The notes under the pieces were generated by a model, which was not told where the DNA came from, made no database searches, and saw only the letters and a program-made list of their open reading frames with translations. Shown here in pieces: positions 4,241 through 25,005 of a DNA stretch of 25,005 nt (the first letter of the stretch is position 1; every line of letters begins with the position of its first letter). The DNA is from a virus: IMG/VR virus record IMGVR_UViG_3300010373_000128, positions 1 through 25,005 of that record; one strand, 5' to 3'. A program made the translations under genes and the position numbers.

Positions 4241-4927
4241 CTACGAAAATATTCGTGTTGTCCGTCGTATAATTGCCACAACTCTAACGGTTTCATTTTC
4301 GGAACCGTTACCGCCCTTATTCTTTTTGCTATGATGAACAACCACCGGCTTGTAGCTGCTATTATCGCTACAAACGCGATACTCAGTTCTATCCGGCAGC
4401 TTGGACACTACACGCGCCGACAGTTCGATCAACCCGGCCCGGCTGCGCTCTATGATTACGCTCTGCCCTTCAATCGCTTCATAATTAGCTGGCGCTTGCA
4501 CACATATAACAATGTCGCCGTTTAGAATTCCTCCCTTCACCATCGAGTCACCTTTGAACGCATAAGCGATCGGTTTGGCGTCGGGAAACTGGATATCGTG
4601 CGGGGCCTCAATAGTTCCTAGGTCTTCAAGCTGCGGAAGGCCCTGCTCAAACCACAGGCCGAGTCCTATTTCTCTCTCTATATGTATCCACATTGATTCA
4701 GAGCCGAGAACTTGGGCGGCGCGAACGTTAGGAATCGGCTCTTCGAGATATTGAGAAACTGGCACAAGCTCTTCGCTCTTAACTTTACGGATTCCGGAAG
4801 TCATCTTGTGCACGGTAATGCGGTGCATGGGCTTTTTTAGCTTGAGTGCCTTTGTAAGAAACTCCGCCAGCCCGATCGCGCTCTTACCCTGCTTCTCAAG
4901 TCCGGATTTGATCCACTTTGCATACAT
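4241..4927 (-). CDS. Phage repressor, helix-turn-helix plus S24 (LexA-like) domain
   Basis: A 228-residue protein with an N-terminal DNA-binding region (about residues 1-62, with FLTKALKLKKPMHRITVHKM where the recognition helix is expected) and a C-terminal S24/LexA-type domain (about 110-222). The domain has the nucleophile motif GDSM (serine 128), NGDIVI (136-141) and a GQSVIIERSRAGLIELSARV segment. In self-cleaving relatives a catalytic lysine follows the E-T-T-V stretch; here the aligned residue appears to be arginine 172, with lysine 176 nearby, so autocleavage is uncertain. It is transcribed leftward, opposite the long early operon, as expected for a CI-type lysogeny repressor. Operators of matching sequence occur in the divergent region and elsewhere. 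It ends in TAG. Confidence 0.88.
   Translation of the reverse strand: MYAKWIKSGLEKQGKSAIGLAEFLTKALKLKKPMHRITVHKMTSGIRKVKSEELVPVSQYLEEPIPNVRAAQVLGSESMWIHIEREIGLGLWFEQGLPQLEDLGTIEAPHDIQFPDAKPIAYAFKGDSMVKGGILNGDIVICVQAPANYEAIEGQSVIIERSRAGLIELSARVVSKLPDRTEYRVCSDNSSYKPVVVHHSKKNKGGNGSENETVRVVAIIRRTTRIFS
4350..4373. promoter_or_regulatory. Operator-like palindrome inside the repressor gene
   Basis: Perfect arms TTGTAGC (4350-4356) and GCTACAA (4367-4373) separated by 10 bases, against 7 in the other sites. It encodes CSDNSSYK in the repressor, so the match could be due to codons. If bound, it could act as a roadblock or auxiliary site for autoregulation. Confidence 0.35.
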
Positions 4928-16433: not shown

Positions 16434-16666
16434 CCCCACAGCACTTAGCAGACGCTTGCGCCAACTCAATCAATTTAGCGACACAAATTGGCACGCCAAC
16501 TGATAAGGCTTCAATTCAGATCACGACTCCGAAGGGGTGGAAAACTCCGCCAAAATTCCCGCGCGGCTGGCTAGCTCAAGTCAAAGAGGACGGCACGCGG
16601 ATTCGATACGTCAACGCAATGAAGGTGCTCGCGTGGCTAGCCGCTAACGAAATGATTAAGACATGA
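16430..16666 (+). CDS. Small phage protein, possibly DNA-associated
   Basis: A 78-residue protein with a GTG start. It begins with a helical stretch (MTPQHLADACANSINLATQI) and continues with PKGWKTPPKFPRGWLAQVKE and RIRYVNAMKVLAWLAA. Its C-terminal part is basic and aromatic. It is directly upstream of the AlpA-like gene; a partner role in gene control is possible but unproven. Confidence 0.6.
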   Translation: MTPQHLADACANSINLATQIGTPTDKASIQITTPKGWKTPPKFPRGWLAQVKEDGTRIRYVNAMKVLAWLAANEMIKT

Positions 16667-16911
16667 CCCCCGCCAACGACAACTCACCCCACTGGCCGCG
16701 TGGTCTTCGCCGCACGCTTGCCGCTGCCTACATTGGGGTTGGCCTCACCATGTGGGATACGATGGTAGCTGACGGCAAAATGCCAAAGCCAAAGCGCTTC
16801 TACGGACGCACGATTTGGGATAGGCTGGCCGTAGACGCTGCATTTGACGTGCTAGACGGCGGGCAGGCCACCGACAAAGCCGGGGAAACTATTTACGATT
16901 TTGCCGCTTGA
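16663..16911 (+). CDS. AlpA-like helix-turn-helix DNA-binding protein
   Basis: An 82-residue protein with the pattern of rhizobial prophage AlpA/excisionase-like regulators: LRRTLAAAYIGVGLTMWDTM (15-34, helix-turn-helix) followed by ADGKMPKPKRFYGRTIWDRL (36-55, wing) and AVDAAFDVL. Such proteins control promoters or aid excision. Its stop codon TGA is part of the -35 TTGACA of the first palindrome promoter (16908-16936), so it is adjacent to a site it could bind. It closes the long early operon. Confidence 0.78.
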   Translation: MTPANDNSPHWPRGLRRTLAAAYIGVGLTMWDTMVADGKMPKPKRFYGRTIWDRLAVDAAFDVLDGGQATDKAGETIYDFAA

Positions 16912-16936
16912 CACCTAGGGCGGGTTGCCCTATGGT
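16908..16936 (+). promoter_or_regulatory. Palindrome promoter 1 (TTGACA - TAGGGC/GCCCTA - TATGGT)
   Basis: -35 TTGACA (16908-16913), 17-base spacer, -10 TATGGT (16931-16936). The spacer contains the palindrome TAGGGCGGGTTGCCCTA (16916-16932). It drives the gene at 16985; the leader is 48 bases, longer than in the other copies. The -35 overlaps the stop codon of the AlpA-like gene. Confidence 0.8.
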
Positions 16937-16984
16937 CGTTTTTGGATGGGCCTTTCGCCTGCCACATAAAAGGGAGCATCGATC

Positions 16985-17296
16985 ATGACCGAATATCGTT
17001 TCATTTCTCGCGGTCTCAAATTCGTTATTGAAGGCCACGGCTTCGCCAGCAGTGAGGCCCGCAACGATTTCGATCTGATCGCCGACAAAATTGAGACTGC
17101 ACTGGACGCGATGCCCACCGCTGAACTAGCTCGCCTGCACGCCATCGCTGTCGAGGCCATTGAAGGCGGTAGCGGCACCTACGGTACGGAAGCTACCGCG
17201 TTAGATGACATCGTGATCGGCATAAAGGTCGAAGTCACACGCGGCTGGTACAACCCGAATGGATGCGACGTTAGCTTGATCGCACTGCCGACTTGA
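16985..17296 (+). CDS. Hypothetical phage protein after palindrome promoter 1
   Basis: A 103-residue protein: MTEYRFISRGLKFVIEGHGF, then a helical middle (ALDAMPTAELARLHAIAVEA), a glycine-rich turn (GGSGTYGTE) and a beta end (DIVIGIKVEVTRGWYNPNGC). AAAAGGGAGC lies before the ATG. It is a single-gene unit between two palindrome promoters; its stop overlaps the -35 of the second. Family not recognised. Confidence 0.7.
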   Translation: MTEYRFISRGLKFVIEGHGFASSEARNDFDLIADKIETALDAMPTAELARLHAIAVEAIEGGSGTYGTEATALDDIVIGIKVEVTRGWYNPNGCDVSLIALPT

Positions 17297-17321
17297 CACC
17301 TAGGGCGAATTGCCCTATAAC
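17293..17321 (+). promoter_or_regulatory. Palindrome promoter 2 (TTGACA - TAGGGC/GCCCTA - TATAAC)
   Basis: -35 TTGACA (17293-17298), 17-base spacer, -10 TATAAC (17316-17321). Palindrome TAGGGCGAATTGCCCTA at 17301-17317. The start of the next gene follows the -10 after exactly 27 bases, as in copies 3 and 4. The -35 overlaps the stop of the preceding gene. Confidence 0.85.
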
Positions 17322-17348
17322 TGATTCCAGAGAGAATGAATTGGACAA

Positions 17349-17627
17349 ATGGCGACCAAGGAAATCACCCTAAAAGACGTTCGCAAATACGCCGCGACGA
17401 TCGGCGCGAAAGTCGAAGACGACAAGAGCGGCAATTGCCATTGCTGCCGAGTTGAAGCGCCTCACCGCAAGAAGTGGGCCTGTCGCGGCGTTCACGAAAT
17501 GGTTGACGATACCAACCGGCCTTGGAAGCCTGACTATGCCGACATGCTTTCGTGTATGAAATTTGGCCTTGAAGATTGCGAAGACGCTGATTGTGAATGG
17601 TGTGATGACGCAGGGGAGTTTTCGTGA
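17349..17627 (+). CDS. Cysteine-rich hypothetical phage protein
   Basis: A 92-residue protein with several cysteines: NCHCCRVEAPHRKKWACRG (about 29-47), MLSCMKFGLEDCEDADCEWC (66-85). Probably metal-binding. It starts a gene group from palindrome promoter 2. The leader has GAGAGA but no classic ribosome-binding site. The TGA overlaps the next start. Confidence 0.7.
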   Translation: MATKEITLKDVRKYAATIGAKVEDDKSGNCHCCRVEAPHRKKWACRGVHEMVDDTNRPWKPDYADMLSCMKFGLEDCEDADCEWCDDAGEFS

Positions 17628-17857
17628 TGGCAAAACCACCCACCACGCTAGACGATATTTTCAACGAGATTGAAGCGGAAGCTGCGGCTTCGCCGCGCCC
17701 CGCTCCTCTTACGCCCGAACAACTTGCAAAGCGTGAAGAAGAGAACAGAGCCGAGCACGAAAAAGGAATCAGGCTTGGATGGTGGGATAAAGACGGCAAC
17801 CCGCTTGAGCAAGAGTCTGACGAAGATGAAGACGAAGACGAAGAGGAGTCCAAATAA
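17627..17857 (+). CDS. Small acidic-tailed phage protein
   Basis: A 76-residue protein. The N-terminal half is helical and alanine/proline-rich (LDDIFNEIEAEAAASPRPAP), and the C-terminus is a strongly acidic tail (QESDEDEDEDEEESK). The ATG at 17627 follows a GTG at 17624; either could be used. An acidic tail suggests binding to a basic partner; no known family. TAATG overlap with the next gene. Confidence 0.6.
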   Translation: MAKPPTTLDDIFNEIEAEAAASPRPAPLTPEQLAKREEENRAEHEKGIRLGWWDKDGNPLEQESDEDEDEDEEESK

Positions 17858-18090
17858 TGCCCCGCCTCAACGTCGACTCCCACAACTGCACGCCGGTTAT
17901 TACCAAGACCTTGCGAGCGTTCTTGGCTCGCAACGCGGACAAGGTCGCAGAGTTTTGGGCTGAAGCCGATGGAATTTTTGTCGTGCTCAAAGAAGGTTGG
18001 TGTGACGCACACGGCGCACACACCATTCGCGGCGATCATTCCAGCGCGACGATTGCGCGGTTTAAGCAGATGGTGAGGCGGGAGTCATGA
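17857..18090 (+). CDS. Small hypothetical phage protein (77 residues)
   Basis: MPRLNVDSHNCTPVITKTLR, then AFLARNADKVAEFWAEADGI and FVVLKEGWCDAHGAHTIRGD. An alpha/beta protein with histidine/cysteine positions that may bind metal. No recognised family. Confidence 0.65.
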   Translation: MPRLNVDSHNCTPVITKTLRAFLARNADKVAEFWAEADGIFVVLKEGWCDAHGAHTIRGDHSSATIARFKQMVRRES

Positions 18091-18290
18091 CAAGCGAGCA
18101 AGCCAAACGCGTCAAGATCGGAGATCGTATCAAGTGGCAGTCGCTAGACGATTCCGTTGAACCAACATACGGCCGAGTCAGCTTCGTTGGTTACAATGGC
18201 TTCGAAGTCAAGTGGAACGACGGCGAGGAGAGCAATCAGAAGTTCAACGAGCCGGAACGGTTGTGCTGCTTCCATTTGGTGTTGTCATGA
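18087..18290 (+). CDS. SH3-like phage protein with KIGDRI opening
   Basis: A 67-residue protein: VKIGDRIKWQ, YGRVSFVGYNGFEVKWNDGE. A small barrel of the KOW/Tudor kind, like those at 5838, 6020 and 9370. ATGA overlaps on both sides. Its role is unknown. Confidence 0.65.
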   Translation: MTSEQAKRVKIGDRIKWQSLDDSVEPTYGRVSFVGYNGFEVKWNDGEESNQKFNEPERLCCFHLVLS

Positions 18291-18454
18291 TCCCGTCCGC
18301 AAAAGCTACGGCCATGGTGAAGCGTTGGCTTGGCAACAAGCAAATCGCCATAGCTATTGCGAAAGAGAACTTAGAGATACACACGCGCAACAACGACAAG
18401 GTAGCGATTGAGTTTTGGAAACAGGTTCTTTTGGCTTTGGAGAATGAGTCGTGA
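18287..18454 (+). CDS. Small helical phage protein (55 residues)
   Basis: MIPSAKATAMVKRWLGNKQI, then AKENLEIHTRNNDKVAIEFW. Mostly helical and basic. The ATG at 18287 overlaps the previous TGA. A longer in-frame reading from 18212 overlaps the SH3-like gene and is not favoured. Confidence 0.6.
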   Translation: MIPSAKATAMVKRWLGNKQIAIAIAKENLEIHTRNNDKVAIEFWKQVLLALENES

Positions 18455-18693
18455 AACTGTTCTGCATAACCAGCGATAGCGGTACGATCGACTGGCGAGC
18501 CACAAAAGGCGAAGCCATCAAAGAGGCTCGTCGGTGGATGACCAAACAGGACGGTGAAGCCGAAGATATGTGCGCAATAATTGTTGAAGAGCACGAGATA
18601 GGAAAGCTGACCAAGGCAGTTGCTATATCGCTTGTCACGGGCCGAGGGTTTTATATCAGCAAGTGTAGAGTCTGGCCGGAGGAAAAAACGTGA
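18451..18693 (+). CDS. Small hypothetical phage protein (80 residues)
   Basis: GTG start; MKLFCITSDSGTIDWRATKG, then EAIKEARRWMTKQDGEAEDM. Alpha/beta pattern with final YISKCRVWPEE. GTGA overlaps at both ends. The function is unknown. Confidence 0.65.
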   Translation: MKLFCITSDSGTIDWRATKGEAIKEARRWMTKQDGEAEDMCAIIVEEHEIGKLTKAVAISLVTGRGFYISKCRVWPEEKT

Positions 18694-19043
18694 AACGTCG
18701 CATTGACGCCGTGCGCGGGAAAATTCCTCCGCACTCATTCTTCTGCCAAGCTGAAATTGATTCAGCAAAGGTTGACGCGTTGGTGTCGCATATCAAAGCT
18801 GGCGGAAAAGTCGCGCCTGTTGTTGCTGTTAAATATCGCACGGAATACATGCCGATCGACGGCCACCACCGGCTTGCAGCGTTTGAAGAATTAGAGTTGG
18901 TCGCAGACGCGTGGCTTGTTGACGGAAATAAGTTCGAAACGTTGGACCAACTTGTTCGTATGGATAGCGACAATAACAGAGCTGAAGATTTTGTTTTTTG
19001 TGATGGCGTCCCGGCGCTGAAGGTTGCTCAATGTTTAACCTGA
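18690..19043 (+). CDS. ParB/sulfiredoxin-fold domain protein
   Basis: A 117-residue protein with the ParB N-terminal (CTPase/nuclease) domain pattern: KVDALVSHIKAGGKVAPVVA, then MPIDGHHRLAAFEELELVAD. The GHHRLAA block is the conserved 'GxxRxxA' motif that binds nucleotide. It lacks a separate DNA-binding domain, so it is more likely a stand-alone enzyme or modification factor than a partition protein. It overlaps the DUF6283 gene by 13 bases. Confidence 0.75.
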   Translation: MKRRIDAVRGKIPPHSFFCQAEIDSAKVDALVSHIKAGGKVAPVVAVKYRTEYMPIDGHHRLAAFEELELVADAWLVDGNKFETLDQLVRMDSDNNRAEDFVFCDGVPALKVAQCLT

Positions 19044-19390
19044 AGCGTCCATGCAAAACCTGCCCGTTCAAGGCCGACCAAGGCACTAGCTTTTCGCTTG
19101 GGAAGAGCAGGCTTGAGGAGATTTTTTCTGCAATTGCTTTTCAGTGCCACAGCACGATTGATTACGATTCATTTGAAGACCCCATTGCGAGGCAAGGAGA
19201 TAAGCCGCAGCAATGCGCCGGGCTAATGTCGTTACTCCACCGTGATAACAGGCCGAATGCAATTATGCAGATTGCGGAACGTCTTGGATATTTTGACGGC
19301 AACAAGCTGGATCATTCCGGAGTCTATAATTCTATCGCCGAATGTATGCGCGATCATACGAAGCGCGTTTCGCGCAGGGTAAAAAAATGA
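19031..19390 (+). CDS. DUF6283-family protein
   Basis: A 119-residue protein. The N-terminal RPCKTCPFKADQG (6-18), AIAFQCHSTI (35-44) and QCAGLM set of cysteines and histidine matches DUF6283, found in actinobacterial and phage proteins and probably metal-binding. The C-terminal part is basic (MRDHTKRVSRRVKK). It is directly followed by the integrase, whose ATG overlaps its TGA. Confidence 0.78.
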   Translation: MFNLKRPCKTCPFKADQGTSFSLGKSRLEEIFSAIAFQCHSTIDYDSFEDPIARQGDKPQQCAGLMSLLHRDNRPNAIMQIAERLGYFDGNKLDHSGVYNSIAECMRDHTKRVSRRVKK

Positions 19391-20499
19391 AAACCCCCAA
19401 GTACGTCACCACCGACACTGGACCGGACGGCATGGAACGATTCTATTTCCGCCGCCCCGGTCAAAAGAAGGTCCGCATTCATGGCGTGCCGTGGACTCCA
19501 TCGTTCATGGCGCAGTACGAGGCTGCGAAGGGTGGTGCTGTGCTCGTGCAAGGTATCGAGCCACAGAAGACGGGAACGTTTTCTTGGCTCTGCGATCAAT
19601 ATTTTGCATCGGGTGAATTCAAAGCGCTTGACGATGAACTTTCAAAACCAAAACGCCACAACAATCTTCTGAAGATTTGCAAAGAACCGATAGCGCCGAA
19701 CAGCACAAAGTTGTTTGGTGACGTCGCGTTGCCAGCTTGGAACAAGAAAGCTGTCCGCGTCATTCGCGACCGCTTTTCGCAGACACCCGGCACGGCAAAC
19801 GATTTACTGAAGGCTCTTCGCGTTATTTTCAAGTGGGGCAACGATGCAGAGCACTGCGACAGCGTCGCGCGTGATGTTGCGTACCTGAAGCTAACGAACG
19901 TTGACGGTTGGCATACTTGGACGATTGAAGAGGTTGTGACGTTCGAAATTCGTTGGCCTATTGGCACACGAGAGCGGCTAGCTATGGGTTTACTACTTTT
20001 TACCGGGCAGAGAATTTCAGATGCCATGCGCCTTGGGAAAAAGAATGTGAAGCTTGTTCCGACTCCTATCTTGGGTGAAGACGGCAAAGAAATAGTTGTT
20101 CTCAAGAAATGGCTGAAGTTCCGCCAACGCAAGAACCGGAACAGCAAGCCGGTTGATATGGAAATACCGCTTCGTCCGGAACTTGAGGAGCTGATTGACG
20201 CTGTACCCGGCGCATGGGAAGGCGAAACGTTTCTCAAGAACACCCTTGGCAGGCCGTTCACGGCTCACAACTGCGGCGATTGGTTCGCCGCCGCCTGCAT
20301 AGCCGCCGACGTTCCCGGCCGCTCACACGGTCTCCGCAAGGCCGCTGCTTCCCGGTTGGCAGAGCTAGGTGCGACGGAAAAAGAGATCATGTCGATTACC
20401 GGCCACAAGACGTCGCAGGAAATCAAGCGTTACACGGAAGCTGCAGACCGAAAGAAACTGGCGGCGCGTGCAACTGCACTTAGTGCAAAGGTGGGGTGA
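19387..20499 (+). CDS. int: Tyrosine site-specific recombinase (phage integrase)
   Basis: A 370-residue integrase. The catalytic set is visible: LLLFTGQRISDAM (arginine 209), SHGLRKAAA (histidine 314, arginine 317), ITGHKTS (histidine 340) and RYTEAA (nucleophile tyrosine 349). The N-terminal third (GPDGMERFYFRRPGQKKVRI) is the usual arm-type and SAM-like part of rhizobial phage integrases. The ATG at 19387 overlaps the previous stop; an earlier ATG at 19342 would duplicate coding sequence. It catalyses integration and, with a helper such as the AlpA-like protein, excision. It is embedded among small genes; the nearest candidate attachment region is 21608-21869. Confidence 0.93.
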   Translation: MKTPKYVTTDTGPDGMERFYFRRPGQKKVRIHGVPWTPSFMAQYEAAKGGAVLVQGIEPQKTGTFSWLCDQYFASGEFKALDDELSKPKRHNNLLKICKEPIAPNSTKLFGDVALPAWNKKAVRVIRDRFSQTPGTANDLLKALRVIFKWGNDAEHCDSVARDVAYLKLTNVDGWHTWTIEEVVTFEIRWPIGTRERLAMGLLLFTGQRISDAMRLGKKNVKLVPTPILGEDGKEIVVLKKWLKFRQRKNRNSKPVDMEIPLRPELEELIDAVPGAWEGETFLKNTLGRPFTAHNCGDWFAAACIAADVPGRSHGLRKAAASRLAELGATEKEIMSITGHKTSQEIKRYTEAADRKKLAARATALSAKVG

Positions 20500-20708
20500 T
20501 GGCTAAACTAACTAAGCTAGAACTTGAAATTATCTCTCACGCCAAGGCCATGCAACATATGGGCGGCTTTTACACGGCCGATCGTCTACAATGGCGTCGT
20601 TGTGAACGTCTTCGCGAGAGAGGATTATTGAAGTTCTGGAATGATCGTAAATCTCGTTATTGGACGTCTCAGTTTTATACGATCACTGACAAAGGTAACA
20701 GTCAATGA
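20499..20708 (+). CDS. Small winged-helix-like phage protein
   Basis: A 69-residue protein: MAKLTKLELEIISHAKAMQH, RLRERGLLKFWNDRKSRYW. The helix-helix-strand-wing pattern resembles a small winged helix. The ATG at 20499 is preceded by a GTG at 20496 in frame. It overlaps the integrase stop; a recombination directionality role is possible but unsupported. Confidence 0.6.
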   Translation: MAKLTKLELEIISHAKAMQHMGGFYTADRLQWRRCERLRERGLLKFWNDRKSRYWTSQFYTITDKGNSQ

Positions 20709-20887
20709 CTGACAAAACCTTTACCCTCTACTGGCGAACCGGAACACGCGAAGTCGTAACTGGCAAAGACACCGCCGATGCAATGACTCGCGCCGGTTAC
20801 GGCGGTGGTGCAACTCGTGCGTTACAGGTTGGGATGCCTTCGCGGATGCCCGTCAAGGCTGGCGAGTTTGATGGTGGGGCGAAATGA
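20705..20887 (+). CDS. Small phage protein of widespread unknown family
   Basis: A 60-residue protein, FTLYWRTGTREVVTGKDTAD, then AMTRAGYGGGATRAL. This 'FTLYWRxGxREVVxG...AGYGxGAxRALxF' pattern is common in phage small proteins. Function unknown. ATGA overlaps. Confidence 0.7.
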   Translation: MTDKTFTLYWRTGTREVVTGKDTADAMTRAGYGGGATRALQVGMPSRMPVKAGEFDGGAK

Positions 20888-21141
20888 CCGACGAATTCCT
20901 AAAAGGCATCATGAGCCGCGAAAAACCAAAGCGCCTCACTAGGGCTGATAAGCTGGCCATCAACAAGGCCGGGCAACAGAATCTGATTCAAGAAATTCAG
21001 GATATCGAGAGTCGCGCCCATAGCCTTGGAATGCATGTCACCGGCCACGCGTTGAACCGCGCCAAGAACGCCTTGGGTTGGGAGATACAGGGGAAGATTG
21101 TAGAGGCTGACGCGGCTGCGCGAGGGTACGACTCCAAGTGA
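20884..21141 (+). CDS. Small helical phage protein (85 residues)
   Basis: MTDEFLKGIMSREKPKRLTR, then QQNLIQEIQDIESRAHSLGM and LNRAKNALGWEIQGKIVEAD. All-helical. No recognised family. ATGA upstream and GTGA downstream overlaps. Confidence 0.65.
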   Translation: MTDEFLKGIMSREKPKRLTRADKLAINKAGQQNLIQEIQDIESRAHSLGMHVTGHALNRAKNALGWEIQGKIVEADAAARGYDSK

Positions 21142-21377
21142 CCTTCACCGGCCACATAACGCCATCTGACTTTACAGTGGCCCGCGTCTTGGCCGATCGG
21201 TTGATGGCATCATGCGAGCCAAATCAACATTGGGACGAACTAGACGAACTTACACCCGCTCAATGCGTGGCGCTCGATAGCATCGCCTTTGAGTGCCAGA
21301 CCTGTAATCATTGGTTTCCAGCCGCAGCCAAGGGCCGTGAAGAGCGCGGCGGCTGGCTTTGCCGGGAGTGTGAGTGA
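21138..21377 (+). CDS. Small zinc-finger-type phage protein
   Basis: A 79-residue protein with GTG start. The C-terminal half has a four-cysteine set: FECQTCNHWF (about 51-60) and WLCRECE (73-79), which should bind zinc. The N-terminal part is helical (DFTVARVLADRLMASCEPNQ). The stop overlaps the next start. Confidence 0.7.
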   Translation: MTFTGHITPSDFTVARVLADRLMASCEPNQHWDELDELTPAQCVALDSIAFECQTCNHWFPAAAKGREERGGWLCRECE

Positions 21378-21607
21378 TGGGTGATTCTAGATTCATAGCC
21401 ATTGAGTGCGATGGTATTATTAATGTTCACGCGGAAGGAAACGGTTTAGGTTTTGGCTATGCCACTCTTTGCGGTATGGATGGGGCTGATCCCGTTGCCG
21501 GGCAATATTTGGCCGATCTACCCCGACGCCCGAAAATCAATTGCGAGCAGTGCCGGGCCTTGATCGTAGAGGCCCGCCGATGGACTAAGCGCGACCTTTG
21601 CGCCTAG
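21377..21607 (+). CDS. Small phage protein, last gene of integrase group
   Basis: A 76-residue protein: MGDSRFIAIECDGIINVHAE, then FGYATLCGMDGADPVAG and INCEQCRALIVEARRW. The 'HAEGNG...TLCGMDG' and 'CEQCRA' patterns are typical of a phage small-protein group with probable metal-binding cysteines. GTG at 21374 or ATG at 21377. Ends in TAG and is followed by a 300-bp non-coding region. Confidence 0.65.
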   Translation: MGDSRFIAIECDGIINVHAEGNGLGFGYATLCGMDGADPVAGQYLADLPRRPKINCEQCRALIVEARRWTKRDLCA

Positions 21608-21869
21608 GACAAACCCGGCCTAAAACCGGAATAAGCCTGTCCAACTCTGTTCTTGCCTTGGACATTGGCCGAAATTCTTCAATGATTTTGCACCCCTAGA
21701 CCATATAGGTAACTCCAATATGGGGTTACAGTCTAAAAAATACCCCTATATTTTCAGGCACTTACCTCTCGAAAATTGTCCAAGCATACTTTCGGCTTTC
21801 TAAGATATCGTTGAGCTATTGGTTTTATTGTCCAATCTTAATTCGTAAAAATGTCCAACGGAGAAAAAC
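21608..21869. other. AT-rich non-coding region with five TGTCCAA heptamers (candidate attP or origin)
   Basis: TGTCCAA occurs at 21638-21644, 21777-21783, 21829-21835 and 21852-21858, and inverted at 21658-21664. Between them is an AT-rich core with related segments CACCCCTA, ATATAGG, ATATGGGG and TACCCCTATAT (about 21690-21755) that pair as imperfect inverted repeats. GGACA (21607-21611) and TGTCC (21638-21642) bracket a small CCGG hairpin. There is no gene. Repeated short sites flanking an AT-rich core, 1.1 kb after the integrase, suggest arm-type integrase sites around attP; iterons of a replication origin are the alternative. Confidence 0.5.
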
Positions 21870-21908
21870 ATTTCGAGGCTGATTAAAAGAGACGAAATAG
21901 CTACGTTC

Positions 21909-22355
21909 TTGCGAGCGTGGCCAAGCCGGGTTGATGAACTATTTGAGTGTGGCGCTATCAAAGAAAACGAAAGCGACGTCTACGATAAGGACGAAGTGGG
22001 GATGGCATTCAGCAACGAGCAACACATCAAAAATCCACCCTTACCCCCAAAGGTATTTTCTGAGCCGCCGCAAATCGTTTACTTTGTTGAAGATGGCGAT
22101 TGTATCAAAATAGGTACTACAGTGGGAAAGGTGAAAATTCGGCTATCTAGTCTTCAGGTAGGCAACCCACGGCAACTGACTTTGCTTGGCACCTTTCAAG
22201 AGTCTGGAAACGTTGAATACGATTTGCACAATCGGTTTCATGCATATCACATTCGCGGCGAATGGTTCCGCGACAATCCAGAGCTTCGCGCCCTGATATC
22301 CGCCCGGTGCCCGGCCAACGATAACGCGGTTGCAGCCTCCTCCGAAGTCGCCTAG
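21909..22355 (+). CDS. T5orf172 (GIY-YIG-like) domain protein
   Basis: A 148-residue reading from TTG 21909. Residues about 56-130 carry the T5orf172/Mug113 domain: IVYFVEDGDCIKIGTTVG, RLSSLQVGNPRQLTLLGTF, LHNRFHAYHIRGEWFRDN. This is a GIY-YIG-fold module found in phage and other proteins, probably DNA-cleaving or DNA-binding. The frame upstream stays open and reads like protein (RLIKRDEIATFLRAWPSRVD, a helix-turn-helix-like start) back to an ATT at 21870 with GGAG six bases before it, so the true start may be the rare codon ATT, giving 161 residues. An ATG at 22002 is another possible start. The 3' end overlaps a hairpin before the lipoprotein gene. Confidence 0.78.
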   Translation: MRAWPSRVDELFECGAIKENESDVYDKDEVGMAFSNEQHIKNPPLPPKVFSEPPQIVYFVEDGDCIKIGTTVGKVKIRLSSLQVGNPRQLTLLGTFQESGNVEYDLHNRFHAYHIRGEWFRDNPELRALISARCPANDNAVAASSEVA

Positions 22356-22374
22356 CCTTCCCTTCTTTCGGAGG
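22339..22374 (+). promoter_or_regulatory. Hairpin masking the ribosome-binding site of the BamE-like gene
   Basis: CCTCCGAA (22339-22346) and TTCGGAGG (22367-22374) are a perfect 8-bp stem with a 20-base loop that contains the TAG of the upstream gene. The right arm carries the GGAGG ribosome-binding site of the ATG at 22383. Ribosomes finishing the upstream gene would open it, giving translational coupling. No T run follows, so it is not a typical terminator. Confidence 0.5.
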
Positions 22375-22382
22375 TTGTCGCC

Positions 22383-22643
22383 ATGCGTATTCTCGCCCTC
22401 GCCTTGAGCCTCGCCCTAGCGGGCTGCGCTGGCACGCCATTCTATTGGGACAGCGCGAAGCAGGTAAGGGTAGGGTCTAGCCAAAGCGAACTGGTAGCCC
22501 TCCTAGGCAAGCCGTACATGGTCAAGACCGCTGGCGATGAACAGACGTGGATTTGGTCATATTCCGGCTTAGACGGAACCAAGCTTGTTTCCTACGTCCT
22601 GCGAAATGGCACGGTTACGGTGGTGCCTACCATCGTCAATTAG
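22383..22643 (+). CDS. BamE/SmpA-like outer-membrane lipoprotein
   Basis: An 86-residue lipoprotein. Signal RILALALSLALAGC with lipidated cysteine 15, then the SmpA/OmlA pattern QVRVGSSQSELVALLGKP and TWIWSYSGLDGTKLVSYVL. Host BamE helps assemble outer-membrane proteins; a phage copy could modify the host surface, for example to exclude other phages, or be unrelated in role. GGAGG precedes the ATG, inside a hairpin. It is followed by a GC-rich hairpin, so it probably ends its transcript. Confidence 0.8.
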   Translation: MRILALALSLALAGCAGTPFYWDSAKQVRVGSSQSELVALLGKPYMVKTAGDEQTWIWSYSGLDGTKLVSYVLRNGTVTVVPTIVN

Positions 22644-22675
22644 CGGCCCCGCACAGCCCCGCCCTAGCCAAGTAG

Positions 22676-22712
22676 CAGCCCGCCCGGTCTAACGCACCAC
22701 CGGGGCGGGCTG
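22676..22712. terminator. GC-rich hairpin after the lipoprotein gene
   Basis: CAGCCCGCCCGG (22676-22687) pairs with CCGGGGCGGGCTG (22700-22712) with one bulge: a strong stem of about 12 bp. There is no T tract on either side, so it may act as a pause or insulating structure rather than a classic intrinsic terminator. Its right arm abuts the operator at 22711. Confidence 0.45.
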
Positions 22713-22729
22713 TACCGATTCTAGCTACA
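22711..22729. promoter_or_regulatory. Distal repressor operator-like site A
   Basis: TGTACCGATTCTAGCTACA. Its reverse complement, TGTAGCTAGAATCGGTACA, matches the immunity-region operator core TGTAGCTAATATCGTTACA at 15 of 19 positions by hand alignment. It forms a pair with the site at 22757, 46 bp apart. Confidence 0.6.
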
Positions 22730-22756
22730 TTTCCCTTGCATCCCGGCTCACCATCC

Positions 22757-22775
22757 TGTACCGATTTTGGCTACA
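22757..22775. promoter_or_regulatory. Distal repressor operator-like site B
   Basis: TGTACCGATTTTGGCTACA, identical to site A except at 2 of 19 positions. It directly abuts the AGGAGG of the small ORF at 22788, so a bound repressor would block its transcription start or leader. A TTGCAT at 22736-22741 with a 17-base spacer to TACCGA inside this site could be a promoter, but it is poor. Confidence 0.6.
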
Positions 22776-22787
22776 GGAGGATTTGCC

Positions 22788-22895
22788 ATGCTTACGCCTG
22801 CCGTCATTGAAGCCCCTCGCTCTGGCCTTTGTCTTCGTCCCTGTGGCCTTTTGGGCTATCTGCGGCCGGTGCCGAAAATAGGTGTTGACTCCTAG
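22788..22895 (+). CDS. Tiny ORF behind the distal operator pair, possibly frameshifted membrane peptide
   Basis: A 35-residue ORF (MLTPAVIEAPRSGLCLRPCG...) with an excellent AGGAGG ribosome-binding site 7 bases before the ATG. In the +1 frame, a TTG at 22807 gives a 24-residue reading, MKPLALAFVFVPVAFWAICG..., which is a textbook transmembrane helix. Either the C run at 22815-22818 has gained a base in a single membrane peptide gene, or the upstream ORF is a leader for the TTG reading. Such a strong ribosome-binding site behind two operators argues that some product is made. Confidence 0.5.
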   Translation: MLTPAVIEAPRSGLCLRPCGLLGYLRPVPKIGVDS

Positions 22896-22913
22896 GGCGA
22901 ATCGCCCTATCAA
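22885..22913 (+). promoter_or_regulatory. Palindrome promoter 3 (TTGACT - TAGGGC/GCCCTA - TATCAA)
   Basis: -35 TTGACT (22885-22890), 17-base spacer, -10 TATCAA (22908-22913). Palindrome TAGGGCGAATCGCCCTA at 22893-22909, here symmetrical to the CG inside. The gene at 22941 starts 27 bases after the -10. The -35 lies inside the end of the tiny ORF at 22788. Confidence 0.82.
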
Positions 22914-22940
22914 CGATGCATCAGGAACGGAGATACGCAG

Positions 22941-23150
22941 ATGGCCAGCCACGTTTTGAGACCCGACAATCGCCCGAACGAAGTTGTTTGGCACTGGGTT
23001 GAGAAGGCGCTTTCCGAACATGATTTCGCTCCCGTGTCTTGGGCGCTTGGCTCAGATTGGGGTAGCGGAATGCGAATACTCACCGCCGCCGAATACAAAG
23101 CCGAAGTCTACAAGCGAATGGAAATCATTTATGGAAAGCGCCCGACATGA
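22941..23150 (+). CDS. Small hypothetical protein after palindrome promoter 3
   Basis: A 69-residue protein: MASHVLRPDNRPNEVVWHWV, EKALSEHDFAPVSWALGSDW. Mixed helix and aromatic residues; no recognised family. ACGGAGA is suitably placed before the ATG. It heads a four-gene operon (22941-23621) with ATGA/GTGA overlaps. Confidence 0.65.
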   Translation: MASHVLRPDNRPNEVVWHWVEKALSEHDFAPVSWALGSDWGSGMRILTAAEYKAEVYKRMEIIYGKRPT

Positions 23151-23305
23151 TCGATATGACCCGCCTTCACAAGCTGGCTTGCGATGCTGCTTACGCAGCC
23201 GTGCCCGGCTATCAAGACAACGACACGCCAGAGCATACGGCTTGGCTTGCCGCGTATGACAAAGAGTTTGCGATTCTGTTGCTGCTACCGGGTAATGTGT
23301 CGTGA
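23147..23305 (+). CDS. Small hypothetical phage protein (52 residues)
   Basis: MIDMTRLHKLACDAAYAAVP, then HTAWLAAYDKEFAILLLLPG. Mostly helical. It is coupled by ATGA to its predecessor and GTGA to its successor. No recognised family. Confidence 0.6.
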   Translation: MIDMTRLHKLACDAAYAAVPGYQDNDTPEHTAWLAAYDKEFAILLLLPGNVS

Positions 23306-23505
23306 AGCGCCCCGGCTATCGCGAAGCGATCGAATGGCTAGCTTGCAACGATGATTGCTATTGGCTTGGCGGCGAAGAAGGCGAAAGCATTTCTGTGGCT
23401 GCGGCCCTCGTGCGCGACCTATTCGACGTCGCCGACGAAAAACTATTTTCCGATATACGCCGCGCTCTCAAGCGAATCCACCCGAATCATGAGGCATTGA
23501 AATGA
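23302..23505 (+). CDS. Small hypothetical phage protein (67 residues)
   Basis: GTG start; MKRPGYREAIEWLACNDDCY, then SISVAAALVRDLFDVADEKL and FSDIRRALKRIHPN. The pattern 'REAIEWLAxNDD..WL' is frequent in small phage proteins of unknown role. Helical. Confidence 0.68.
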   Translation: MKRPGYREAIEWLACNDDCYWLGGEEGESISVAAALVRDLFDVADEKLFSDIRRALKRIHPNHEALK

Positions 23506-23621
23506 CCGTTATTTATTGCTGGCTGGCGCTCAATGCTGCAATTCCTGTCGTGATCTATATTCGCGTGGTCACCAGCCGCCGAGTCAGGTTCTACCGGCAC
23601 GCCAAATTATTTTCAATTTAG
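23502..23621 (+). CDS. Tiny single-pass membrane protein (39 residues)
   Basis: MTVIYCWLALNAAIPVVIYI followed by a basic tail (RVVTSRRVRFYRHAKLFSI): one transmembrane helix with positively charged C-terminal side. ATGA overlap with the previous gene; the TAG ends 3 bp before the -35 of palindrome promoter 4. Too short to assign. Confidence 0.6.
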   Translation: MTVIYCWLALNAAIPVVIYIRVVTSRRVRFYRHAKLFSI

Positions 23622-23624
23622 GTG

Positions 23625-23653
23625 TTGACACCTAGGGCGGTTGGCCCTATACC
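23625..23653 (+). promoter_or_regulatory. Palindrome promoter 4 (TTGACA - TAGGGC/GCCCTA - TATACC)
   Basis: -35 TTGACA (23625-23630), 17-base spacer, -10 TATACC (23648-23653). Palindrome TAGGGCGGTTGGCCCTA at 23633-23649. The gene at 23681 starts 27 bases after the -10. It should also transcribe the ParB-like gene. Confidence 0.84.
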
Positions 23654-23680
23654 GAGACTACACCAACCGGGAGACGCGCC

Positions 23681-23956
23681 GTGAACCATCAAGAAATGAC
23701 CAAGCACATTCGCGGTCGCATCAGGAAGGAAGGCGTTGAAGCTCGCGTTTCCCTCTACACTTCATGCGGCACGAAGTGCATTCGGGTAATCCCGATTGCT
23801 GCAGATAAATCTTGGAGCGGTGAAGAGGCTCGTAAAATCTGCATCGTTGCCAGTGCCAACAATCTTTACGGCTCAATGAAATCAACAATCGATTATTCGT
23901 TTGAACGTTGGGCCAATAGCGGCGCTACCAACTTCCAGTTTGAATTTCACGGCTAA
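23681..23956 (+). CDS. Small hypothetical protein after palindrome promoter 4
   Basis: A 91-residue protein: MNHQEMTKHIRGRIRKEGVE, then SLYTSCGTKCIRVIPIAADK and a C-terminal FERWANSGATNFQFEFH. Alpha/beta. GGGAGACGCGCC precedes the GTG start. Similar 'I..RIKKAGI.A.V..Y..CG.K.IRV..P' proteins are common in phages and host genomes, unnamed. Confidence 0.7.
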   Translation: MNHQEMTKHIRGRIRKEGVEARVSLYTSCGTKCIRVIPIAADKSWSGEEARKICIVASANNLYGSMKSTIDYSFERWANSGATNFQFEFHG

Positions 23957-23986
23957 CTCACAACCAACACACAGGGGCTACACACC

Positions 23987-24766
23987 ATGCAATTCCGTGA
24001 CCACGAAGCCGTCAAGGGCAAGCGCGACTCCTACCCGGTTGATCCTCGTGAGCTGAAGGTCGACCCGGCCTACAACGTCCGCGACATGAAAGACCCGGAA
24101 ACGATTGAGCACGTTCGGTGGCTGGCCGACTCGATCAAGGAGTCCGGCGTTCGTGTGCCGTTGGAAGTCCGGCTTGAGGGCGATGATATCTACGTTGTCT
24201 CCGGTCACTGCCGTCTCGCTGCTACCATGCTGGCGATCAAGGAAGGCGCGGAAATCGAAACCGTGCCGACGATTCCCGAGCCGAAGGGCACCAACGAAAT
24301 TGAACGCGTGCTGAATCTTGTTATCAGCAACAGCGGCAAGTCTCTTACGCCGCTCGCAATCGCTGAAGTCGTGCGCCGGCTGATGGCGTTCGGCTGGGAC
24401 GCGGCCAAGATCGCGCAGCGACTCGGGTGGAAGTCTGCGGCCACCGTCGACCAATACACTACCCTCTTGGGCGCAGCTCCCGACGTGCAGGAAATGGTAC
24501 GCAGCGGCGCGGTAGCCGCCAGCACTGCGGCCAAGGTCGTGAAGAAGGAAGGCAACAAGGCCGGTGCAACGCTTGCCGCAGCGGCGAAGCAGAGCGGCGG
24601 TAAGGTGACCGCGAAGACCATTCGCGAGAGCAAAGGCGAGTTCGACCCGTCGCCGAAGAATGTCGCGAAGCTCTGCGATTACATTCGCAGCATCGCTACC
24701 GGCCATAGCGCCATGAATGCGTCTGCGCTCAAACTGATGAAAGAAGTTGGATTGGAGGCGGCGTGA
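23987..24766 (+). CDS. ParB-like DNA-binding protein
   Basis: A 259-residue protein. ParB N-terminal domain at about 15-110 with ELKVDPAYNVRDMKDPETIE, LADSIKESGVRVPLEVRLEG and the nucleotide-binding block SGHCRLAAT (72-80). A helix-turn-helix region follows at about 119-175 (LTPLAIAEVVRRLMAFGWDA, AKIAQRLGWKSAATVDQYTT). The C-terminal part is alanine/lysine-rich. No parA is visible on either side. It lies between palindrome promoters 4 and 5 and is a natural candidate to bind their palindromes, either as regulator or as centromere-binding protein. The ATG follows a CAGGGG leader. Confidence 0.82.
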   Translation: MQFRDHEAVKGKRDSYPVDPRELKVDPAYNVRDMKDPETIEHVRWLADSIKESGVRVPLEVRLEGDDIYVVSGHCRLAATMLAIKEGAEIETVPTIPEPKGTNEIERVLNLVISNSGKSLTPLAIAEVVRRLMAFGWDAAKIAQRLGWKSAATVDQYTTLLGAAPDVQEMVRSGAVAASTAAKVVKKEGNKAGATLAAAAKQSGGKVTAKTIRESKGEFDPSPKNVAKLCDYIRSIATGHSAMNASALKLMKEVGLEAA

Positions 24767-24936
24767 CCTGCAAACTGTGTGCGGGATTCGGAAGCCGGTT
24801 CTGCATACAGGGCGGCAACAAGGAATGGTGGACTTGCCAAGCTTGCGGCGGTTGCGGGGTTAGGGTTTTGTATGGCCCCGCAACCATAACAGTTCACAAA
24901 ATCAAGGCAGTTAAGCCGCCGAAGCGCAAAAGATAA
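24763..24936 (+). CDS. Small zinc-ribbon protein
   Basis: A 57-residue protein with GTG start overlapping the ParB-like stop (GTGA). CKLC (3-6) and CQACGGC (25-31) with further cysteine 14 form a zinc-binding set; the tail is basic (KAVKPPKRKR). It could bind nucleic acid. Last gene before palindrome promoter 5. Confidence 0.65.
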   Translation: MTCKLCAGFGSRFCIQGGNKEWWTCQACGGCGVRVLYGPATITVHKIKAVKPPKRKR

Positions 24937-24949
24937 TTGTTTTTGGTAG

Positions 24950-24978
24950 TTGACAGATAGGGCGACGTGCCCTATAGT
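24950..24978 (+). promoter_or_regulatory. Palindrome promoter 5 (TTGACA - TAGGGC/GCCCTA - TATAGT)
   Basis: -35 TTGACA (24950-24955), 17-base spacer, -10 TATAGT (24973-24978). Palindrome TAGGGCGACGTGCCCTA at 24958-24974. By the fixed 27-base leader of copies 2-4 the next gene should start on the first base after the window; a GGGG stands at a plausible ribosome-binding distance. Confidence 0.84.
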
Positions 24979-25005
24979 GAGTCTATCGAAACGGGGTTCA
25001 CGACA

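Follow-up and report, generated by a model that had tools for sequence, protein, structure and literature searches.

The viral DNA considered here, IMG/VR record IMGVR_UViG_3300010373_000128 (positions 1 to 25,005; hereafter the window), carries five TTGACA-type promoters, each with a palindrome of the form TAGGGC-N5-GCCCTA set into the interval between its -35 and -10 elements. On the strength of sequence comparisons we regard it as likely that each palindrome is the operator of a helix-turn-helix (HTH) homodimer of the KorC/Aca1 type, a repressor that would serve a regulon dispersed across the phage genome. The switch is of a known kind; its dispersed, multi-operon phage form is the variant. 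The argument draws on the computed sites and their register, the linkage between regulator genes and sites, the covariation of residue and base, and the location of genes in relatives. The five promoter-operators are as follows.

16908..16936, + strand: promoter-operator 1, TTGACA, palindrome TAGGGCGGGTTGCCCTA (16916-16932), -10 TATGGT
17293..17321, + strand: promoter-operator 2, TTGACA, palindrome TAGGGCGAATTGCCCTA (17301-17317), -10 TATAAC; 27-nt leader 17322-17348
22885..22913, + strand: promoter-operator 3, TTGACT, palindrome TAGGGCGAATCGCCCTA (22893-22909), -10 TATCAA; 27-nt leader 22914-22940
23625..23653, + strand: promoter-operator 4, TTGACA, palindrome TAGGGCGGTTGGCCCTA (23633-23649), -10 TATACC; 27-nt leader 23654-23680
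24950..24978, + strand: promoter-operator 5, TTGACA, palindrome TAGGGCGACGTGCCCTA (24958-24974), -10 TATAGT; leader 24979-25005, predicted start 25006

In every copy the palindrome begins exactly 8 bases past the start of the -35, the -35 and the -10 (pattern TATNNN) are 17 bases apart, and the first two bases of the -10 are the last two of the palindrome. The -35 reads TTGACA in four of the five copies, copy 3 having TTGACT. No copy with two or fewer mismatches is present elsewhere in the window, and the description given in the initial annotation (five TTGAC[A/T]-17-TATNNN promoters with a palindromic spacer in the same register, all on the + strand and none to the left of 16.9 kb) proved exact. 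The dinucleotide content of the window predicts 0.0005 exact occurrences of the arms, and of the 19 six-five-six palindromes in the window only that with the TAGGGC half-site is found more than once, which excludes a chance origin for the repeats. The palindrome ends inside the -10, and hence upstream of the transcript, and the window has no Rfam match; an RNA terminator or riboswitch was rejected on these grounds. The -35 of copy 1 includes the TGA stop codon (16909-16911) of an AlpA-like gene and that of copy 2 the TGA (17294-17296) of a 103 amino acid gene (operon 1), so that these promoters are packed onto gene ends. A comparison of the window with known phages gave no nucleotide match.

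The closest parallels are found on broad-host-range plasmids. R751 carries TAGGAC-N5-GTCCTA in its klcA and kleA promoters, RA3 carries TAGGCC-N5-GGCCTA before orf02, before klcA and at one further promoter, and in R751 klcA, R751 kleA and RA3 klcA the position of the palindrome relative to TTGACA is that seen in the window, to within one base. Both plasmids encode KorC, which, according to the literature, represses these promoters. The likeness to KorC of IncP R751 and IncU RA3 extends to a 17-bp TAGGNC-N5-GNCCTA palindrome lying inside the -35/-10 interval of TTGACA-type promoters, of which the window has five exact copies in the same register, and to a small HTH repressor, here a predicted one, that would serve several promoters. 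Unlike the plasmid operators, those of the window have G at base 5 of the half-site (A in R751, C in RA3); the window is from a phage, with orphan cargo rather than klcA or kle, and the phage KorC-like proteins are only distant homologues of KorC. No klcA, kle or kfr gene stands under operator control, the first genes being orphans, and in this respect the set departs from a KorC regulon.

A second parallel is Aca1 of Pseudomonas phages, for which PMC9410881 quotes a binding DNA that includes TAGGCA-CAATG-TGCCTA. Here the likeness consists of a TAGGNN-N5-NNCCTA palindrome in the core promoter, a homologous HTH in the KorC-like proteins of other loci (a KorC-like profile matches Aca1 structures with E about 3e-5) and small variable genes upstream of the regulator; the differences lie in the half-site, TAGGCA, in the single operon per phage that is typical of Aca1 and in the fact that no anti-CRISPR is recognised in the phages described here. 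Judged by sequence, the window site is the KorC/Aca1 frame with a different inner dinucleotide. Our literature search found no work connecting plasmid KorC with the anti-CRISPR regulator Aca1. The stoperators of cluster A mycobacteriophages are also many dispersed repressor sites, largely in one orientation, as are the window sites, but are asymmetric, lie largely outside promoters and are bound by the immunity repressor.

When viral contigs were scanned, the TAGGGC promoter-palindrome turned up in 61 viral stretches, against 6 for a control palindrome; TAGGCC was found in 27 stretches, TAGGAC in 25, TAGGCA in 30 and TAGGTC in 6. Related genomes hold further copies, nine of them in G001, a relative described below. 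KorC-like HTH genes, detected with a profile grown from plasmid KorC, are present in 47 of the 61 stretches, and hits within 1.5 kb of a site are strongly polarised: 43 lie downstream and 5 upstream, all on the strand of the site, and none lies on the opposite strand (24, 2 and 0, respectively, with a profile of plasmid KorC only and no iteration). Control loci have no KorC-like genes near their sites. The typical layout is a promoter-operator followed by one or two small genes and then the HTH gene, as in klcA-korC and acr-aca operons. Pfam, PHROG and NCBIfam assign the KorC-like proteins only to generic HTH, MqsA-antitoxin-like or unnamed families. Most of the contigs with the site have just one, which is what a lone acr-aca-like operon would give; the window has 5, G001 9, L019 5 and a few others several, and the multi-operator form is an unusual trait of the window's phage group.

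If the KorC-like proteins bind these sites, protein and half-site might be expected to change together, and they do. Each site was paired with the nearest downstream KorC-like protein and the proteins were clustered at 60% identity. The residue that follows the invariant arginine of the recognition helix is Arg in 20 of 22 TAGGGC clusters and in 8 of 9 TAGGAC clusters, Lys in all 6 TAGGCC clusters and neither of these in all 4 TAGGCA clusters (Fisher P 7e-5 when TAGGGC is compared with TAGGCC and 1e-5 when TAGGNC is compared with TAGGCA, both optimistic, given that shared descent leaves the clusters less than fully independent). When all 60 alignment columns were scanned without bias, the same residue showed the strongest association (z 8.5, 0 of 1000 shuffles). 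Aca1-like sequences of the RMMRYYL type are among the TAGGCA proteins, which provide a positive control, a site of this kind being a known target of Aca1. In an AlphaFold2 model of the G001 protein (79 residues, mean predicted local distance difference test score 82), the covarying residue is 42, in helix 37-45, the third, recognition helix of the HTH. Foldseek placed Aca1 at the top of its matches to this model and also listed Aca2, Aca7 and Aca10, all with weak E-values (best 0.13), and we take the modelled similarity to Aca1 as supportive only. KorC-like proteins of other loci likewise match Aca1 by profile and, with weak E-values, by fold; the window itself encodes none of them. KorC of broad-host-range plasmids and Aca1 of anti-CRISPR operons are linked through a shared operator architecture and a residue-to-base code that can be tested, and the proposal that the palindrome is a dimeric regulator's operator in a co-regulated set of small operons is supported.

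Where, then, is the regulator? Three contigs have the same gene order as the window: G001 (35.3 kb), with nine exact operators, all on the same strand, and a further copy that has a single mismatch; G003 (30.8 kb), with three operators of the TAGGGC type; and G007 (36.9 kb), with five variant TAGG[A/C/T]C operators at comparable promoters. The G007 sites (L148, L151; 21809, 26346, 27129, 27714 and 29479) have asymmetric TAGG[A/C/T]C halves and none is TAGGGC. Of these relatives, G001 alone extends over the structural genes that surround the connector, and it is there that a candidate repressor gene is found.

33739-33978 of the G001 reverse complement: KorC-like gene, located between head-tail connector and tail genes; its operon has an operator of its own

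The encoded protein, at L057:299-535 on the minus strand, carries Arg, as expected for TAGGGC, and the same arrangement is seen in L010, another relative of the structural region, which has three operators. The 25-kb window has no KorC-like gene; the window, G003 and G007 all end before the connector-tail region that G001 and L010 cover, and the regulator would be missing from the window because the window stops before the structural region. Of the binders suggested in the initial annotation, a factor outside the window is the one that gained support. A search for the PF03354 terminase found none in the window, G001, G003 or G007.

From these patterns we infer binding, repression, an early burst of expression and cargo that counters host defences. 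Since the promoters resemble sigma-70 promoters, they would fire at once on infection, before the repressor builds up, and several small blocks of accessory genes would be expressed. A homodimer on the palindrome between -35 and -10 would then block RNA polymerase; because the palindrome starts 8 bases past the -35 start and runs into the -10, the bound dimer would cover the promoter core. The repressor, whose own operon also carries an operator, would shut down all the blocks together, and its gene is predicted to lie just outside the fragment, in the structural region, with the head-tail connector on one side and the tail genes on the other. In this phage group a single repressor would apparently govern not one but several small-gene operons, of which the window has five and G001 nine. 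An operator of this kind flags promoters that drive small orphan phage genes, a setting in which anti-CRISPR genes and other genes against host defences occur. More tentatively, and with the balance somewhat against it, an Aca1/KorC-type autorepressor may have become a switch that acts genome-wide through as many as about ten operators and releases exchangeable anti-defence cassettes in one burst at entry. Were this so, the operator and its Arg/Lys/other code would offer a sequence handle to dozens of unknown anti-defence gene families, and a subset of the promoters would add a second, RNA-level control via a leader hairpin.

The leaders fall into two classes across the loci, one of 24-29 nt (mode 26-27) and one of about 40-55 nt (mode 46). 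A perfect G+C hairpin is found in none of 26 short leaders and in 32 of 36 long leaders (11 expected after shuffling). The fixed 27-base leader noted in the initial annotation is real for copies 2, 3 and 4 but is not universal, being a feature of the hairpin-free class only; copy 1 belongs to the long class.

16937..16984, + strand: leader of copy 1, 48 nt, hairpin class, GGGC-CUUUC-GCCU helix including a G-U pair, minimum free energy -9.2 kcal/mol

Long-class leaders (that at 16937-16984 and those of L023, L055, L064 and others) have the hairpin, often GGGCAATNNTGCCC, about 8-14 nt past the -10, and the R751 klcA and kleA leaders hold a similar GGGC..GCCC hairpin sequence. The hairpin could possibly provide RNA-level control or act as an mRNA-stabilising element. 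The leader of copy 5 aligns without gaps to that of the syntenic G001 promoter, which has the same ParB-like gene upstream: the two are equal in length and identical at 20 of 33 bases counted from the -10. Because the G001 leader terminates in ATG, a gene start at 25006, one base beyond the 25,005-bp record and just where the earlier prediction had put it, is well supported by sequence.

Several observations weigh against a KorC/Aca1-type repressor of the whole set. No gene for the binder is present in the window or has otherwise been observed in this phage; the KorC-like gene of G001 and L010, lying in the structural region and distant from most operators, could be an accessory with a private operator. 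The code has exceptions, in TAGGGC clades with Lys (L015/L065, L042, L060) and in the multi-copy TAGGCC phages L095, L106, L113 and L115, whose one detected KorC-like protein is of the Arg type and is encoded 1.6-3.7 kb away from the sites. A search within 1.6 kb of the sites came up without a KorC-like gene in the majority of TAGGCC stretches (10/37 sites). One group of TAGGCC phages (L093-L095, L113, L115, L118) has 2-4 dispersed TAGGCC promoters per stretch, and its KorC-like protein, where found, is Arg-type and more distant, contrary to the simple code. As for the cargo, none of 54 first genes has a Pfam or PHROG match to an anti-defence gene.

The lack of a KorC-like gene in the window, together with the shared architecture of plasmid KorC operators, would also fit control by a KorC-type repressor of the host or of a co-resident plasmid, the phage plugging into an existing regulon; relatives whose sequence takes in the structural region have a KorC-like gene of their own, preceded by an operator, and we consider such outside control improbable. 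Slightly less probable again is the earlier suggestion that the ParB-like protein encoded at 23987 binds the palindromes, as operators, as dispersed centromeres of a phage-plasmid or as both. The protein has an HTH_ParB match, is encoded between copies 4 and 5 and is kept in G001, G003 and G007 (76% identical in G007), yet its gene occurs in only 2 of the 61 motif-bearing stretches and its HTH does not track the operator: G003 and G007 have near-identical ParB HTH sequences and different operators (TAGGGC versus TAGG[A/C/T]C), and the window and G001 use the operator of G003 with a different ParB HTH. Centromere sites would be expected independently of promoters, unlike the five sites here, all of which lie inside promoters at a fixed register, and ParA PF13614, the one ParA family searched, had no match in the window (G000), G001, G003 or G007, all of them fragments.

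The AlpA-like protein encoded at 16663, also put forward earlier, fares no better. Its gene abuts site 1 in the window and the equivalent site in G003, G007 and L030, which would suit a regulator acting from beside copy 1, but no more than 2 of the 61 motif-bearing stretches have this gene, the altered operator of G007 is not reflected in the sequence of the protein and the gene lies upstream of the site, outside the controlled operons; we place it a little below the ParB-like protein. Least credible of all is that strong promoter cassettes have been duplicated, carrying a palindrome that nothing binds. Promoter, leader and ribosome site do repeat together as a unit; only the arms are constant, however, the N5 centre differing between copies, and the geometry is retained in unrelated phages and plasmids, where it comes with other half-sites that covary with the recognition-helix residue. 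An S24 CI-like protein was rejected as the binder, there being no site in its region. A KorC/Aca1-type repressor remains the preferred explanation.

The genes of the window that bear on the regulon are these.

4241..4927, - strand: S24-peptidase CI-like repressor, in a motif-free region
16663..16911, + strand: AlpA-like protein (phrog_25900, transcriptional regulator), rejected as binder
16985..17296, + strand: operon 1, 103 amino acid orphan gene, no homologue in G001, G003 or G007
17349..21607, + strand: operon 2, extent inferred from overlapping genes; small orphans, ParB-N-like protein, tyrosine integrase and further small genes
18690-19043, + strand: second, shorter ParB-N-like protein (operon 2), 117 amino acids, partial phrog_1033 match
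about 19388-20499, + strand: tyrosine integrase (operon 2)
22941..23624, + strand: operon 3, small genes 22941-23150, 23147-23305, 23302-23505 and 23502-23624
23681..23956, + strand: first gene of operon 4, 91 amino acid orphan, GTG start
23987..24766, + strand: ParB-like protein (phrog_1033), probably a regulon member and not the binder

Because the S24 CI-like region has no copy of the motif, CI-like immunity is probably a circuit separate from the palindrome regulon. Those genes of the window that are situated between operators are almost without counterparts in the relatives (none of the operon 3 genes has a homologue in G001, G003 or G007); the helicase, AlpA-like, integrase and ParB-like genes do have counterparts. 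Across all loci, 60 first genes fall into 53 families, and for 54 first genes compared with Pfam the matches were to three Pfam families only. By analogy with klcA-korC and acr-aca operons, and given the rapid exchange of small genes that is typical of such cargo, the cargo may consist of anti-defence genes.

Single hits in genomes amount to 18 stretches, with roughly 7 expected by chance (estimated for 18 fixed bases in 257 Gb), and single chromosomal hits such as that in Oscillospiraceae (L067) were set aside as mostly noise. Four Bradyrhizobium genomes (L068, L069, L071, L074) have in common a TAGGGC-N5-GCCCTA whose flanks are also conserved; there is no KorC-like gene close by, and the palindrome is probably an unrelated repeat of the chromosome. 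In Duganella and Pseudoduganella (L070, L078), the promoter-palindrome stands ahead of a seemingly tRNA-like sequence (AGCTCATGCTTGGTTAGAGC).

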